A DNA stretch of 64,000 nucleotides. Source: Corynebacterium lactis. Its GTDB lineage: Bacteria; Actinomycetota; Actinomycetes; Mycobacteriales; Mycobacteriaceae. The position numbers and the translations under genes were made by a program. Where the stretch lies: contig NZ_ULHE01000001.1 in assembly GCF_900519355.1 (NCBI RefSeq), positions 806,001 through 870,000 on the forward strand. Direction: 5' to 3'. Below, in pieces: positions 32,899-48,836 of this stretch. The notes beneath the pieces were generated by a model. It saw only the letters and a list, made by a program, of their open reading frames with translations. It was not told the origin of the DNA and did not search any database. Positions within the stretch are counted from its first letter, which is position 1. Each line of letters starts with the position of its first letter.

Positions 32899-35800
32899 AT
32901 GTATTTGAAATCGCTGACTCTGAAGGGCTTTAAGTCCTTCGCTTCGGCGACCTCAATGAAGTTCGAGCCCGGCATCTGCGCGGTGGTGGGGCCGAACGGG
33001 TCGGGCAAGTCCAACGTGGTCGACGCCCTGGCCTGGGTGATGGGCGAGCACTCCGCCAAGACGCTGCGCGGTGGCAAGATGGAGGACGTCATCTTCGCCG
33101 GAACCTCGGGGCGCAAGCCGCTGGGCCGCGCCGAGGTCACGCTCACCATCGACAACTCGGACGGCGCGCTGCCGATCCAGTACCGCGAGGTCAGCGTGAC
33201 CCGCCGCATGTTCCGCGACGGCGCCAGCGAGTACGAGATCAACGGCTCCCGCGTGCGCCTCATGGACGTCCAGGAGCTGCTCTCCGACACGGGTATCGGC
33301 CGCGAGATGCACATCATCGTCGGGCAGGGGCGCCTGTCGCAGATCCTGGAGTCGCGGCCCGAGGACCGCCGTGCCTTCATCGAGGAGGCCGCGGGCGTGC
33401 TCAAGCACCGCCGCCGCAAGGAGAAGGCGCAGCGCAAGCTGGCGTCGATGCAGGCGAACCTCGACCGCCTGCAGGACCTGACCGGCGAGCTCTCCCGGCA
33501 GCTGAAGCCGCTGAAGCGCCAGGCCGAGGCGGCCTCGCGCGCCCAGACCGTGCAGGCGGACCTGCGCGACGCCAAGTTGCGCCTGGCCGCCGCCGACTTC
33601 GTGGACCTCAAGGCGAGCCTGGAGGACATCGCCGGCCAGGCCCGCCTCATCGAGGAGAAGGTGGAGGCAGCCACCGAGCGCGTCGAGATGGCCACCGAGC
33701 GCACCGCCGAGCTGGAGTTCGAGCTGGAGGAGATCACGCCAGCTGCCGACGCCGCCCGCGACCTGTGGTTCCGCCTGTCGGCTCTCGGCGAGCGCGTCGC
33801 CGCCACCGCCCGCATCGCGGCCGACCGCGCCGCTGACCACTCGGTCACCCCCTGGACCGGCCCGGACCCGGACTTCTTGGAAAAGCGTGCCGACGACGCG
33901 GCCGCCGAGGAAGCGACGCTGCAGGAGGCCGAGGACGAGGCGCGGGAGCGCCTGGAGTCGGTCCGCGAGACCCTCTTCGACGCCGAGGAGGAGGCCCGCG
34001 CCGCGGAGGCCGAGCACCTGGCGGCCGTGCGCGCCATCGCCGATAGGCGAGAGGGCGTCGTTCGCCTGATCTCGGCGGAGGAGTCGCTGCGCACCCGACT
34101 GGAGGCGGCGCAGGCGGAGGCCGAGCGCCTGGCGGAGCAGACCGCCGAGACCGGGCAGCGCCGTGCGGACGCCACCGCGGCCGTGGAGGCCGCCGCCGAG
34201 GAGCTGGCCACCGCCGAGCTGGAGGGCCCGGAGCTACAGCGCGCCCACGAGCAGGCCACCCGCGAGGCCGACGCCGCCACCGCGCGCCTCAAAGAGCTGC
34301 GTGTCGACGAGCGCGACCTGGAGCGCACGGTATCGGGCCTGGCCGCCCGCATCGAGGCCCTGGAGGCCGCCCGCGCCGCCGCGGCCAACGACGGCACCGC
34401 GTGGCTGAAGGAGAATCACGGGCTGGGGACGGTCTCGGAGGCCATCTCGGTGGATTCGGGCTGGGAGAAGGCCGTCGCCGCGGCACTCGGGGGCGCTGCG
34501 GAGGCGCTCGTCTCTGGCGCCGAGCACACCGGCGAGTCCCTGATTACCGAGCTGCTGGACTCCGGGAAGGGCAGCGCCGTGGTGCTCGACGGCGTCGCCG
34601 ATGCCAGCCCCTGGCGCCTGGACGTCTCCCTGCCCTCCGGCGCCGACTGGCTGCTCGACCACGTTACGGTCCCCGGCCACCTGACCCGCCCGCTGACCGC
34701 GCTGCTGGTCGACGTCGTCGCCTGCGCCGACCCCGAACAGGCCGCCCAGATCGTCGAGCAGGACTCCCGCCTGCGCGTGGTCAGCCGCGACGGCGTTGTG
34801 CGCGGCCCCGGCTGGGTCGCGGGCGGCTCCGGCGGCCGGCAGTCCGGCATGGAGATCGCCTCGGACATCGCCGCGGCCCGGCAGGAGCTGCAGGCCGCCA
34901 CGGAGCGGCTGAACGACCTGGCTGGCGTGCTCTCCGGTGCCGCGGCCGAGGAGGAGGACCGGCGCACCGACGCCGCGGCCGCCCGAGCGGCCCTGCGCGA
35001 GCACCAGCAGCGCATGAAGGTCTTGGGCGACGCCCGCACCCGCGCGACCGCGCAACTCTCCGGCGTCGTCCACGACTCCGAGCGCGCCGAGAAGCGTGGG
35101 GCGGAGGCCGCCGCACGCGTCGAGTCCCTGCGTGGCGAGCTGGAAGAGGTCGCCGATCGCCTGGCCCGTGTGGATCGCGACCCCGCCGAGGGGGAGCCGT
35201 CGACAAGCGAACGCGACCGCACGGCGGAGGCCCTGGCGGCGGCCCGCGCGATGGAGACGGAGGCGCGGCTGGCGCTGCGCACGGGCGGAGGAGCGCGCGG
35301 GGCAGCGTGCGTGGCAAGGCGGAGCGTCTGCGCAGGCAGGCGGCGGCGGAGCGCATCGCGAAGGCCCGGCACGAGGACGCCCAGGCGGCGCAGGTGGCGC
35401 AGCGCGAACTCGCAGGAGTCGTCGCCGAGGTGGCAGAGGACCTGCGCGCGAAGGTGGCGGTGTCGCTCGCGCGCGCGGAGGCCGACCGCGACGAGACCGA
35501 GGCGACCAAGAAGACGGTGACGGCGGCGCTGGCGCAGGCGCGCCAGGAGGCCAGCCAGGCGCAGCGGGAGCTGAGCGCGCTGACGGATTCGGCGCATCAG
35601 GGAGACATCGCAAAGGCGCAGGCGCAGGTGCGGGTCAATGAGGCCGCCGAGCGCATCGTCGATCAGCTGGGCCTGTCGGTCGCGGACCTGCTGGAGGAGT
35701 TCGCGCCGGACGAGGACTTTGACCGCGCCGCGGTGACCAAGAAACTCAAGCAGGCGGAGAAGGACCTGCGTGTGCTCGGCCGCGTCAACCCGCTGGCGCT

Positions 35801-39845: not shown

Positions 39846-41918
39846 ATGCGCACCCCGCAGCAAATCCGCGCCGAGGCCGACGCCCGCGTGCGCGAGGTGG
39901 TCGGCTCGCTCGACGTCCCAGCCGGGTGCGCGTTGGTGGCCACCGGCTCGCTGGCGCGCGGCGAGATGACCGCCTTCTCCGACTGCGATGTCTTCTTGCT
40001 TATCGACGACTCCCGCGGCACCACCCCGGCGGCGCAGGATATCGAGGCCCTGTGGTACCCGTTCTGGGACGCGAAGCTGCGCCTGGATTACTCGGCCCGC
40101 ACCGTGGCCGAGACCGTCGAGGTGATGGCGTCGGACCCGCGGGTGGCGCTGGCGGTGCTGGACATGACGCTGCTGGCGGGCGACGAGGAGCTTTTCGACG
40201 CCGCCCGCGCCAAGGTCCTTGCGGCCTGGCGGCGCCTGGTGGCCAAGCGCTTCGACGACGTGATTGACCAGGTTCACCACCGTTGGAAAAACACAGGCTC
40301 GCTGGCAGATATGATCAGCCCGGACTTGAAGCATGGTCGCGGGGGGCTGCGGGATGGGGAGCTACTTCGCGCTCTGTCGCTGGGGCACCTCTGCGATATG
40401 CCAGACCTCCGCGTCCCGCGCCAGTTGATCGTGGATACCCGTGTGCTAGTCCATGAATCCGCGGGGCGACCTCGCGATATTCTGGACCCGGAGTTCGCCT
40501 CAGAAATTGCACCGCTGCTAAGAATGCCCGACCGCTTCGCTCTTTCGCGCCGAGTTGCTGCTTCCGCCCGCGCAATCGACTACGCCGTCCAGCGTGGCTT
40601 GACAACTGCGCGCGACGCCATCCCCCGGCATCGAAGTTTAAATCTGCGTGCAAAGCGCCGGGTGCCCCTCGACTTAGACGTCATGATTTCCGATAACCAG
40701 GTCGAACTCGCGGACAAGCCGGACTTCTTCGATCCAGAATTGCCGTTGCGAATGGCCGCGGCAGCGGTCCGAGCGAAAAGAGAATTGTCTGCGGGGGCGC
40801 TCGACCGGCTGGCTAAGAACTGGCGGCCGGGCGAGATCATTTGGACCGCCTCCATGCGCTCGAATTTCTGTTGCGTTCTAGGAGCGGGGGAACAAGTTGC
40901 GGAGTTAGTTAATGCACTCCACGTGGCGGGGTTGTGGTCGAGATACGTACCGGAGTGGGAGGCAATCGCGGGTTTGCTGCCAGCCGAGCCAATCCACGTG
41001 CGAACCATTGACCAGCACACACTGGAGGCGCTACGTCTGGTCTCACCCGCAGTGACTCAGGTAGCCCGCCCAGACCTGCTATTACTTAGCGTGTTTTTCC
41101 ACGATCTCGCAAAGGGTAAGGGCGTTCCGCATGAGGCTGAAGGCGCCAGGCTCGCGCTCTCCCAGATGGCGAACATGGGTTTTTCCGAAAGCGAGTGCGA
41201 GATTGTCGCGAGAGTCGTCGGAAAACATAGCCTGATAGCTCGTCTCGCCGCTCGGTACAATCCAGCATCCAGTGAGGCAATCGGCAGCGTCGTGAAGAAT
41301 ATGGGTGACCCGGTCGCGATTGAAATTCTCGGCGTGTTGACGCGTGCCGACGCCCAGGCGACTGGAGTCGGCGTATGGACGAATTCGCTGGCTAATGCCG
41401 TGGACACCATTATCCCAGCCGCGATTGCGTTGACTCGGGAGTCCTGTGTCGCGTCTGGCAAAGGAAAGGAAGAGGACCTTTTGTCTTGGTCCGGCTCGGC
41501 GGATGAGATTGCTGCTCTCATCGATACTTTGAATCGCTTTGCATGGCGCCTGAACTACTTCGCTTTCCGCCGCGGCGACCGTATTAATGCGGAGTTCCAC
41601 GTGAATTCCTTGATTGGTGACAGGTGGAATCCTATCGCAGTCCGGCAGTCCGTGCGGCATCTATTGCAGCGAGGCCAAGGGGTCGTGGCGGAACCGCCGG
41701 GGATGCAGAGTGCAGGAAACTTTTACTGGGATAATGGGCGCACAACGATTAAAGTGCCAGGGTTGGATAGTAGGCGCCTAAAGTTACTGTTGTTTTGCGA
41801 GGCGATAAGGGGCGTGGACATAAAAGACCTCGGAGCTGTCATGATGGTCTCCGTAGAGATTACGCAAGGCTCCGAGGAAATTGTCAGTGAAGTCCTTGGC
41901 AAACTAGTTGAAGACTAG
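39846..41918 (+). CDS. glnD: PII adenylyl/uridylyltransferase GlnD
   Basis: 690 residues. The nucleotidyltransferase domain has GSLARGEMTAFSDCDVFLL (about 38-56), and the HD domain has FFHDLAKGKGVPHE (about 418-431). It adds and removes the nucleotide on GlnK Tyr51. The C-terminal two ACT domains are hard to recognise by eye (last 100 residues). From about base 40270 the gene uses many TTA, CTA, TTG and AT-ending codons unlike its own first 140 codons and its neighbours. The ATG at 39846 lies 4 bases after the glnK stop; it overlaps the next gene convergently by 4 bases. Confidence 0.88.
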   Translation: MRTPQQIRAEADARVREVVGSLDVPAGCALVATGSLARGEMTAFSDCDVFLLIDDSRGTTPAAQDIEALWYPFWDAKLRLDYSARTVAETVEVMASDPRVALAVLDMTLLAGDEELFDAARAKVLAAWRRLVAKRFDDVIDQVHHRWKNTGSLADMISPDLKHGRGGLRDGELLRALSLGHLCDMPDLRVPRQLIVDTRVLVHESAGRPRDILDPEFASEIAPLLRMPDRFALSRRVAASARAIDYAVQRGLTTARDAIPRHRSLNLRAKRRVPLDLDVMISDNQVELADKPDFFDPELPLRMAAAAVRAKRELSAGALDRLAKNWRPGEIIWTASMRSNFCCVLGAGEQVAELVNALHVAGLWSRYVPEWEAIAGLLPAEPIHVRTIDQHTLEALRLVSPAVTQVARPDLLLLSVFFHDLAKGKGVPHEAEGARLALSQMANMGFSESECEIVARVVGKHSLIARLAARYNPASSEAIGSVVKNMGDPVAIEILGVLTRADAQATGVGVWTNSLANAVDTIIPAAIALTRESCVASGKGKEEDLLSWSGSADEIAALIDTLNRFAWRLNYFAFRRGDRINAEFHVNSLIGDRWNPIAVRQSVRHLLQRGQGVVAEPPGMQSAGNFYWDNGRTTIKVPGLDSRRLKLLLFCEAIRGVDIKDLGAVMMVSVEITQGSEEIVSEVLGKLVED

Positions 41919-42703
41919 GAGTCTTTGGAGTTCTTACGAGCGTAACGAGTAGCGGCCACACCGCCGACTATGAGCGCGAGGGCGGCACCGCCGAAAGCGG
42001 TTGCCTGAACACCTGTAACAGCAAGCCCGGAGCTCGAAGAGGCAGGAGCCTTCTTTTCGTCGGACTTCTTCGAGTCGTCCTTGCTCTGTTTTTCGTCCTT
42101 CTTGGGGGCGTCGGTCTTCTTTTCGTCGGACTTCTTCGAGTCGTCCTTGCTCTTTTCTTCGCCCTTCTTCGGGGCGGCGGACTTGTCTGCGGGCTCTGTC
42201 GGCTTCACCGGGTCTTTTGTACTGTCGTTTAGGGACGGTACGCCTGGGCAGCCTCCCCAGACACCAGTCACGGGGTCTTTCTTGCCCATGTCGCGAATGG
42301 ATCCATCCGGGCAACGGTCGGTGTCTTCCACCTTTGGAGGAATGCCGGGGAGGCGCGATTCGGACGGCGCAGCAGGCTCATCCGGCTTGACGGCTGAGGT
42401 GGGTACGCCTGGGCAGCCTCCCCAGACACCAGTCACGGGGTCTTTCTTGCCCATGTCGCGAATGGATCCATCCGGGCAGCGGTCGGTGTCTTCCACCTTT
42501 GGAGGAATGCCGGGGAGGCGCGATTCGGACGGCGCAGCAGGCGTGCCTACGCAGACTACCTTGCCATCAACTGCGCCGAAGTCTTGGCCTAGGGGGCAGG
42601 TCTCTGGTGCTGGAGCCGGAATCTGCGCCGTAGCAACGCTCGAGCCAACGAGCATTCCTGTAGAGAAAACTACCGCGACGAAGGCGGAAGAGAACTTATT
42701 CAT
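41915..42703 (-). CDS. Repeat-containing surface protein with LAVTG sortase-like signal
   Basis: 262 residues, family not recognised. Signal peptide (about 1-27), then three Cys-pair modules: C36/C51, C76/C97 and C131/C152, the last two almost identical and 55 residues apart (each with CPDG and GCPGVP). A Lys-Asp-Ser linker follows, with KDDSKKSDEKK at 186-196 and 208-218. The C-terminus ends with LAVTG (227-231), a hydrophobic segment and RYARK, the layout of a sortase-anchored wall protein with an LAxTG motif. The ATG at 42703 is chosen because it starts the signal peptide. Lower GC than the flanks. No sortase gene is nearby. Confidence 0.8.
   Translation of the reverse strand: MNKFSSAFVAVVFSTGMLVGSSVATAQIPAPAPETCPLGQDFGAVDGKVVCVGTPAAPSESRLPGIPPKVEDTDRCPDGSIRDMGKKDPVTGVWGGCPGVPTSAVKPDEPAAPSESRLPGIPPKVEDTDRCPDGSIRDMGKKDPVTGVWGGCPGVPSLNDSTKDPVKPTEPADKSAAPKKGEEKSKDDSKKSDEKKTDAPKKDEKQSKDDSKKSDEKKAPASSSSGLAVTGVQATAFGGAALALIVGGVAATRYARKNSKDS
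42237..42542. repeat. 141-bp direct repeat, two copies, in the surface-protein gene
   Basis: 42237-42377 and 42402-42542 differ at one base (A42314 versus G42479). The period is 165 bases, or 55 codons. The near identity shows recent duplication or ongoing gene conversion. Confidence 0.95.
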
Positions 42704-43173
42704 AGCTTGAATACCTCGCAAAGAATCTGAGTCAAAGTCATTGATGGGGGGCAAGACCGAACCTAGATTGCAGAAGCTGCGAACCTTGATTCGCAATCTA
42801 TTTAATCGAATTTAGGTAAACTGCTCAACATTTCACTAAATAAAACTCAAAATGGGGGGTATGAAAAGGGGTCGTCAGGTCGGTAGGTCGTGTGTCGTAA
42901 GTGAAATGGTACATTCAGTTGGGAATCCTATTTTTGGGTGCGGACAATTTCTCATAGAAAAGGTGTTTGGCGCGGCCCTGATAAAGGGGATTTAAGTTGG
43001 GGAGCTGTTGGGTGGAATTGGCGAAGCGGTAGTGTTGGGGCGCTATTGATTTGGTTTGCCCCTGAGCGGGGACATGTCTTCGGCCAGCGCGTTGTCCGGA
43101 ACATGCAAAAATGGTATCCAGCGGGTACGGTAGAACAGTTAAGAAATGACACGCCAAAAGGGGAGCTGGAAAC
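42704..43173. other. 470-bp intergenic region, low GC
   Basis: Divergent promoters for the surface-protein gene (minus) and ffh (plus) are expected. No RNA gene, IS end or convincing ORF is seen; an 87-codon frame at 42938-43201 has no ribosome site and unlikely composition. Composition is lower in GC than either side, and matches the foreign-looking stretch from within glnD. Confidence 0.5.
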
Positions 43174-44767
43174 TTGTTTGAGTCTCTTTCCGATCGTTTG
43201 ACGGGTGCCCTGCGGGGCCTGGGCGGGAAGGGCCGCCTGACTGAGGCGGACATCAACGCCACCGCCCGCGAGATTCGACTCGCCCTCCTTGAGGCCGACG
43301 TCTCCCTCGAAGTGGTCCGCACGTTCGTCAAGCGCATTAAGGAGCGCGCGAACGAGATTGCCAAAAACCAGACCGTCAACCCGGCGAATCAGGTCATCGA
43401 AGTTGTCAACGAGGAACTCATTAATATCCTCGGCGGCGAGACCCGGCGCCTGAACCTGTCCAAACAGCCGCCGACCGTCATCATGCTCGCCGGCCTGCAG
43501 GGTGCCGGTAAGACCACCCTGGCGGGCAAGCTGGCCAAGTATCTGACCGGCCAGGGGCACACCCCGGTCCTGGTCGCCTGTGACCTGCAGCGCCCCGGCG
43601 CCGTCCAGCAGCTCCAGATCGTCGCCGAGCGTGCAGGGGTCCCGTGCTTCGCGCCCTTCCCGGGCACCAGCATCGACTCCACCCACGAGATGGGCACCAG
43701 CGAGGACAACCCCGTCGACGCCGCCTTCCGCGGCCTGGCCTACGCGCGCCAGCACCGTCACGACGTCGTGATTATCGACACCGCGGGCCGCCTCGGCATC
43801 GACGAGGTCCTCATGAAGCAGGCCTCGGACATCCGCAATGCCATCAACCCGCACGAGGTTCTCTTCGTCATCGACTCGATGATCGGTCAGGACGCCGTCG
43901 AGACCGCCAAGGCCTTCCGCGACGGTGTCGACTTCACCGGCGTCGTCCTGACCAAGCTGGACGGCGACGCCCGCGGCGGTGCCGCGCTGTCCATCCGCGA
44001 GGTCACCGGCAAGCCGATCCTCTTCGCCTCCACCGGCGAGAAGCTGGAGGACTTCGACGTCTTCCACCCGGACCGCATGTCCAGCCGCATCCTCGGCATG
44101 GGTGACCTGAGGACGCTCGTCGAGGTTGCCGCCAAGGAGATCGACCACGAGCAGGCCGCCAAGTCCGCGCAGAAGCTGGGCTCCGGCGAGCTGACCCTCG
44201 AGGACTTCCTTGAGCAGATGATGATGGTCCGCAAGATGGGCCCCATCGGCAACATCCTCAAGATGCTGCCAGGCGGCGCTGAGATGTCCAAGCGCCGACA
44301 TGGTCGACGAGAAGCAGCTGGACCGCATCGAGGCGATCATCCGAGGCATGACCCCGGAGGAGCGCGAGAACCCGAAGATCCTGAATGCCTCGCGTCGCCG
44401 TCGTATCGCGAACGGCTCGGGCGTGTCCGTATCTGACGTCAACCAGCTGATCGAGCGTTTTAACGACGCCAAGAAGATGATGGCCCAGATGGCCGGCCGC
44501 TTCGGCATGGGCGGCGGGCGCCCGTCCAACCGCAAGAACAAGAAGGGGCGTAAGGGCAAGCGCAAGGGCGGCAACCGCGGCCCGACGCCGCCGAAGGCCA
44601 TGCGCCAGGGTGGCTTCCCCGGAATGCCAGGAATGCCGGGCATGGGTGGCGGAATGCCGGACATGGCCGAGCTGCAGAAGCTGCAAAAGCAGATGGGCAA
44701 CCAGCTGCCCGAGGGCCTCGAGGGCTTCGACCTGAACAACCTCGACTTCGGCCAGGGCAATAAGTAA
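43174..44767 (+). CDS. ffh: Signal recognition particle protein Ffh (frameshifted)
   Basis: SRP54 GTPase: [17 protein letters not shown] at the N-terminus, then [46 protein letters not shown], and a C-terminal M domain with [21 protein letters not shown] and a Gly-Met-rich tail that binds signal peptides and SRP RNA. Start codon TTG at 43174, AAAGGGGAGC upstream. The frame is lost after base 44292 (AAGCGCCGAC for AAGGCCGCCGAC, two bases missing) and regained in the frame that ends at 44767. About 531 residues when restored. Ffh is essential in bacteria, so a sequence error is likely. Confidence 0.92.
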
Positions 44768-48749: not shown

Positions 48750-48836
48750 GGGGTTCCTTTCGCGGTTTGGCGCACGGCTGGGGTGTGGCTGGGGCGCTGT
48801 CCCAACGATAGTAGCGCTGATAGTAAAGTGGCCCGG

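Follow-up and report, generated by a model that had tools for sequence, protein, structure and literature searches.

SrtF is the class E sortase of Corynebacterium diphtheriae. The motif LAXTG is described as the one used by class E sortases (PMC5148588), and C. diphtheriae is reported to display far less of a LANTG protein on its surface when SrtF is missing (PMC12445094). Exported proteins of this species obtain their disulfides through MdbA (PMC9974433). C. amycolatum is described as having neither corynomycolates nor the fadD32-pks13-accD4 operon (PMC9709149, PMC8733736), a channel-forming wall protein was isolated from it despite the lack of mycolates (PMC3658426), and its pan-genome paper names SpaD-type pili as adherence machinery (PMC9709149). 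Here, a surface-protein gene of Corynebacterium lactis, designated P0001, is described, which lies in a stretch of 64,000 nucleotides (contig NZ_ULHE01000001.1, positions 806,001 to 870,000; below, "the window" means this whole stretch). We consider it rather probable that the predicted product is a sortase-anchored stalk carrying three disulfide-closed hairpins on a wall without a mycomembrane, where it would serve contact or adhesion, or form part of a coat.

Sequence anatomy and conservation of P0001

The P0001 frame runs from an ATG at 42703 to a stop codon at 41915-41917 and is intact despite apparent frameshifts in neighboring genes. The listing of open reading frames (ORFs) also holds an upstream TTG start that would give a protein of 293 residues, but the ATG is preferred because the orthologues begin there. 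The following features were assigned:

41915..42703, reverse strand: surface-protein gene P0001, 262 residues, LAVTG (ORF listing and translation; orthologues)
42714..42717, reverse strand: probable ribosome-binding site GAGG, 10 bases 5' of the ATG (by eye)
42623..42703, reverse strand: predicted Sec-type signal peptide, residues 1-27, cleavage near ATA/Q (by eye)
42551..42598, reverse strand: module A, C36-C51, CPLGQDFGAVDGKVVC (cysteine positions; low-confidence beta hairpin in both fold models)
42413..42478, reverse strand: module B1, C76-C97, CPDGSIRDMGKKDPVTGVWGGC (cysteine positions; low-confidence hairpin in both fold models)
42248..42313, reverse strand: module B2, C131-C152, residues as in B1 (cysteine positions; low-confidence hairpin in both fold models)
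42026..42247, reverse strand: charged K/D/E/S/P linker, residues 153-226, with internal short repeats (sequence)
42011..42025, reverse strand: sorting motif LAVTG, residues 227-231 (sequence; LAVTG in all six orthologues)
41918..42010, reverse strand: hydrophobic segment and basic tail ending in TRYARKNSKDS (sequence, alignment)
42402..42542, reverse strand: 141-nt DNA repeat, copy around B1 (sequence self-comparison)
42237..42377, reverse strand: 141-nt DNA repeat, copy enclosing B2, differing from the B1 copy at one base (sequence self-comparison)

P0001 contains six cysteines, all within the three module pairs. The two 141-nt copies lie 165 nt (55 residues) apart from start to start and differ only at 42314 (A) and 42479 (G); the repeat does not extend on either side, and the near-identical part covers 47 residues of the 55-residue period. 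The coordinates, the three cysteine pairs, the 141-bp repeat with its single mismatch, the charged linker and the LAVTG anchor had been pointed out in the initial annotation, and all of them could be confirmed in the sequence. No conserved operator was found upstream of the gene among the orthologues. A perfect 6-bp inverted repeat, TGCGAA-N6-TTCGCA, is located at 42778-42795, 5' of P0001, and is not common to the orthologues.

The same annotation had called the protein unrecognized and had assigned it to no family, which holds for the libraries searched (Pfam, NCBIfam and PDB sequences). Scans of P0001 against Pfam and NCBIfam gave nothing over cut-off, and this includes the modules, for which a search with hidden Markov models had been suggested; the modules are thus without an assigned family. 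The best NCBIfam matches cover only the linker and the anchor and are far under cut-off (NF041527 SCO1860_LAETG, 18.6 bits with a cut-off of 200; NF058582 Microco_LAVTG surface protein, 11.4 bits with a cut-off of 27). A PDB sequence search gave no match at E <= 1, and a description of the protein was not found among the papers listed by searches of an open-access library, as judged from titles and opening abstracts. Neither plasmid nor phage collections contained a match to the family at E <= 0.01, and a plasmid or phage origin was therefore rejected.

A family profile built from five members was searched in 242 Corynebacterium genomes, and six carriers were identified: G000 (the genome of the window), G055, G033, G104, G105 and G165. 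The same six were strongly matched by a module-only profile. All six orthologues, P0001 included, have the architecture A+B+B with two B modules and LAVTG, and an N-terminus resembling the signal peptide of P0001 (alignment, judged by eye); the six cysteines and the anchor are kept in the five orthologues of P0001. Among 101 relatives of 28 genera, all six matching genomes were Corynebacterium and none lay beyond the genus. An order-wide search with the module profile (298 genomes of 76 genera, including some Corynebacterium) returned one match, the window's own; genome G243, also in this set, fell slightly short of the match limit. At the site of the family gene, this genome holds a remote relative that is interrupted by a run of N. 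At 24 ffh loci (L056-L079) of Corynebacterium genomes outside the clade formed by the carriers and G243, no P0001 match was found.

Several weaker matches were left out of these counts: one in antisense in the genome of the window (E 0.2), those in G054, G052 and G002 (E 8e-5 to 6e-3), one in G189 that covers the signal region (the frame inspected has no Cys-pair module), and those in G102 and G243:C6, which concern the anchor and the end of the linker in other proteins. From the module search, G007, G231, G157, G106, G102 and a third place in G104 were excluded (E 0.006-0.046). Frames read at these six places and at L006 (G052) contained no such module; L007 (G002) and L005 (G054) were excluded on score alone. 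By both ffh and the family, locus L032 (G033), whose record bears the name C. vitaeruminis 1285_CVIT, groups with L033 (G105) of C. amycolatum SK46, and the species label of the former looks doubtful.

Within the modules, the proportion of synonymous change was higher than that of amino-acid change in all 15 pairs of the six genes. In the six pairs among G033, G105, G165 and G104, nonsynonymous divergence (dN) was 0.000-0.030 against a synonymous divergence (dS) of 0.10-0.44, which argues for a constrained protein; dS in comparisons with G000 or G055 was at or near saturation. The modules are under purifying selection among close species and, with the six cysteines and the anchor retained in five orthologues, the observation exceeds chance. 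As judged from the sequences, P0001 represents a new module family within a known kind of protein, that of the sortase-anchored proteins.

Predicted anchoring and fold, and proposed role

The genome of the window contains four sortase matches, two of which are pieces of one gene, giving three sortases: two of class C and one of class E (199.5 bits, cut-off 160). None of them lies within the window. Exactly one class E sortase over cut-off was present in each of nine genomes, seven from the clade and two from outside. The LAxTG-type sorting signal noted at first on this secreted protein is thereby supported, and the class E sortase is the likely anchoring enzyme of P0001. One class C sortase of the same genome lies between two pilin-like genes (L015, 60-2980); the one with LPLTG scored 144.4 bits against a pilin model cut-off of 95, and the one with LAITG scored 46.1 bits, below that cut-off.

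An extended polypeptide measures 0.35 nm per residue. The linker of 74 residues would reach ∼26 nm if fully extended. Two AlphaFold2 runs, with three and four sequences, gave mean predicted local distance difference test (pLDDT) values of 47.9 and 53.8, respectively. In both models, at low confidence, every Cys-pair module forms a short hairpin of two strands, and the linker is without predicted structure, which suggests disulfide-closed hairpins on a flexible stalk.

In the proposed mechanism, the N-terminal signal peptide would direct P0001 to Sec secretion, and each cysteine pair would close a small hairpin, probably through an MdbA-like thiol oxidoreductase. The class E sortase, present together with its motif, would then cleave LAVTG between T and G and attach the protein to the wall, so that about 74 linker residues could take the three modules across it. 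There, the modules may contact a surface or another cell, or may make up part of a protein coat; a putative adhesive role is plausible. Several points weigh against this reading. The fold models are weak at the pLDDT values given and cannot show disulfides, the orthologue of G055 has a seventh cysteine, and the G243 relative, with its run of N, has no LAxTG in three forward frames over 440 bases. A scan of 41700-43300 for one promoter type (0.6 chance matches expected) gave nothing, and no ligand and no functional neighbor of P0001 were found.

A narrower form of the proposal sees P0001 as an adhesin with modules specific for one ligand of host or microbial origin. Proteins that combine repeats, a wall anchor and a flexible stalk often turn out to be adhesins. 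A gene related to P0001 also counts for this form. The P0001 orthologue lies directly beside ffh in G000 and G105, and a paralogue lies between the two genes in the other four genomes. In G033, G104 and G165 this paralogue has the order A+A+B', a Gly-rich collagen-like stalk and LAATG; the neighbor in G055 is different, with CPGNLEVF modules and LAATG. The stalk of the G033 paralogue, the only one scanned, scored 39.6 bits for PF01391 (cut-off 27.2), and this protein reached 43.2 bits with a streptococcal collagen-like adhesin model (cut-off 325). P0001 itself, however, has no collagen, EGF-like or pilin match in Pfam and NCBIfam, and a Gly-X-Y collagen stalk was not found in it by the Pfam scan. 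A ligand-specific adhesin is regarded as a serious candidate that still falls short of being probable. The collagen-like stalks of the paralogues (L004 35-991, L026 1501-2340, L028 1501-2454) are variable in length, and these proteins have an extra conserved cysteine pair (CKNENKC) ahead of the anchor. No second copy of the family was found in the genome of the window or in G105.

Alternatively, P0001 might be a structural wall coat that partly replaces a lost mycomembrane. The mycolate condensase Pks13 (model NF040607) was searched in the 242 Corynebacterium genomes at a limit of E <= 1e-60, a limit that is not fully specific, since Escherichia coli and Bacillus subtilis controls matched below the model cut-off. 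A match was found in 228 genomes, 221 of them above the model cut-off, and 14 had none. The six carriers and G243 are all among these 14, and the family occurs in none of the 228 matching genomes. The genomes of the clade gave only weak Pks13 matches (E 1.9e-13 at best; G033 had none at all), located in very long frames that presumably encode fatty-acid synthase. When 40 ffh protein rows were placed in a tree, the carriers and G243 grouped in a single clade (100/100) with a long stem, and the remaining genomes lacking a Pks13 match fell elsewhere. Not included in the tree were L083, L084 and L075, which comes from the same genome as L096; its G001 row fills 21% of the columns, and G061, G194 and G239 are on long branches. 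The clade is probably without a mycomembrane, and the missing corynomycolates of C. amycolatum (PMC9709149, PMC8733736) also favor the coat.

Against it, the family and the missing Pks13 match fall together on one branch and amount to a single coincidence. The family is also absent from the seven other genomes that gave no Pks13 match (G012, G169, G194, G202, G239, G250 and G276), an argument against its being generally required once mycolates have been lost, although G239 and G276 are only 53 and 77% complete. The channel-forming wall protein of C. amycolatum (PMC3658426) means that gene content does not settle the nature of the outer layer, which may be more than bare wall. A replacement coat is rather unlikely. 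Still more speculative, and doubtful in our view, is a combined scenario in which the family arose on the branch that lost mycolates and, with the paralogue, would form a disulfide-stapled, sortase-anchored layer doing part of the work of an outer surface, its copies being kept alike by gene conversion.

P0001 adds to the predicted sortase-anchored proteins a family of modules that no model in the searched libraries describes, and this family is tied to a clade that apparently lacks a mycomembrane. This provides a concrete gene for studying the outer covering of the wall in corynebacteria without mycolates, among them the opportunist C. amycolatum.

History of the repeated modules

In the window gene, B1 and B2 are identical at 98 of 99 bases, the one change being synonymous. 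The corresponding numbers of identical bases are 75 in G055, 79 in G033, 82 in G105, 80 in G165 and 81 in G104. In the five orthologues other than the window gene, B1 ends in G-A-C and B2 in G-Y-C. The A+B+B architecture common to all six and the end residues shared by these five suggest that the duplication is old and that only the sequence became uniform recently. The B pair is probably ancestral, with B1 and B2 already distinct in the common ancestor, and the B modules of the window lineage appear to have been homogenized, through either gene conversion or the loss of one copy followed by a new duplication. A DNA tree of the B modules (12 sequences, 99 nt) joined B1 and B2 of the window with a support of 0.999 and placed both G055 modules with this pair (0.788 and 0.978); it does not separate B1 from B2 throughout, including those of G055. 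Strictly taken, independent B duplications would still be allowed by this tree. A recent expansion, as proposed in the initial annotation, was rejected because of the constant module count and the B1- and B2-specific end residues. A near-identical repeat can mislead here, and it is the comparison with orthologues that tells homogenization from expansion.

The antigenic role that had been suggested with the expansion fared no better. Antigenic variation through gain and loss of repeats would fit the near-identical 141-nt DNA repeat of the window gene and an identical 90-nt unit in the neighbor gene of G055, but all six orthologues have two B modules, and those of the four closest species show far more synonymous than amino-acid change, a sign of the purifying selection described above; this explanation is very unlikely. 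In the G055 neighbor gene (L003 2519-3535), the 90-nt unit occurs twice without a difference (90/90), and the linker is long and rich in K and D. When the window gene was considered as a possible fusion of two neighboring paralogues, its low-complexity linker scored nearer to this G055 neighbor gene (122 vs 84), and its modules and anchor scored nearer to the orthologue; in the upstream regions, 19 to 143 of 300 shuffles scored as well, and none of these regions was conspicuous.

The conserved cysteine pairs, together with the zinc-binding wall proteins described in C. diphtheriae (PMC12445094), could also indicate a metal-binding or thiol-active surface protein. P0001 has neither CxxC nor any histidine, however, so that the HxD/HxH motif described in PMC12445094 is absent, and the module A histidine of five orthologues is an aspartate in the window protein, which leaves this reading highly improbable. 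Least credible of all is that the near-identity of B1 and B2 is an assembly artefact, as the apparent frame disruptions of smc, ffh, rpsP and a fourth ORF might suggest, since the copies differ at one base, are separated by 24 non-repeat bases, and two B modules are present in every orthologue.

Genomic neighborhood and comparison with known surface proteins

Pfam supports ftsY, amtB, glnK, ffh, rpsP and smc around the window gene, and in all six carriers the surface-protein gene is oriented away from ffh. A glnD-like gene at 39846-41918 converges with P0001, and the stop codons overlap (41915-41918), leaving no room for a terminator between them. Its product matches uridylyltransferase models only over residues 1-528, with 562.5 of 799 bits, below the NCBIfam cut-off; residues 529-690, the last 162, are without a model match. 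The glnD-like gene is present in the genome of the window and in six of eight tested genomes outside the clade, and was not found (E <= 1e-5) in any of six clade relatives. In G055, the surface-protein gene comes after glnK, at the place expected for glnD. Of 24 other ffh loci in Corynebacterium, 10 have a glnD match no more than 1500 bases upstream of ffh.

Frame changes near 35290, 44291, 45215 and 48770-48790 affect smc, ffh, rpsP and one further ORF when compared with uninterrupted orthologues. A long synthase frame, presumably a fatty-acid synthase, is split here in two (711 and 2446 residues) versus a single frame of 2791-3069 residues in five relatives. Broken frames in genes that are essential hint at sequencing indels in the window assembly.

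Among the closest known counterparts are the paralogue of G033, G104 and G165 and the neighbor gene of G055, which share with P0001 the interval upstream of ffh, related A modules and a very similar anchor. The paralogue of G033, G104 and G165 is distinguished by its module order, its extra cysteine pair ahead of the anchor and its collagen-like linker. An EGF-like domain has three disulfides, whereas the P0001 modules have one cysteine pair each. Module A of the G033 paralogue resembles part of the central hairpin of EGF_CA (PF07645; profile positions 10-29 of 43) with 20.6 bits, below the cut-off of 27, and P0001 gave no match to EGF-like Pfam models at E <= 1.

Spa-type pilins are likewise corynebacterial proteins with a sortase signal, and the genome of the window has two class C sortases. 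P0001 differs from them in that the pilin motif WxxxVxVYPK, as described in PMC12445094, is not in its sequence, and the Pfam and NCBIfam scans gave no pilin match. The class E substrates, such as the chaplins of Streptomyces coelicolor (PMC5148588), have modules unrelated to those of P0001, but they resemble it in the signal peptide, the LAxTG motif, the hydrophobic segment, the basic tail and the accompanying class E sortase.

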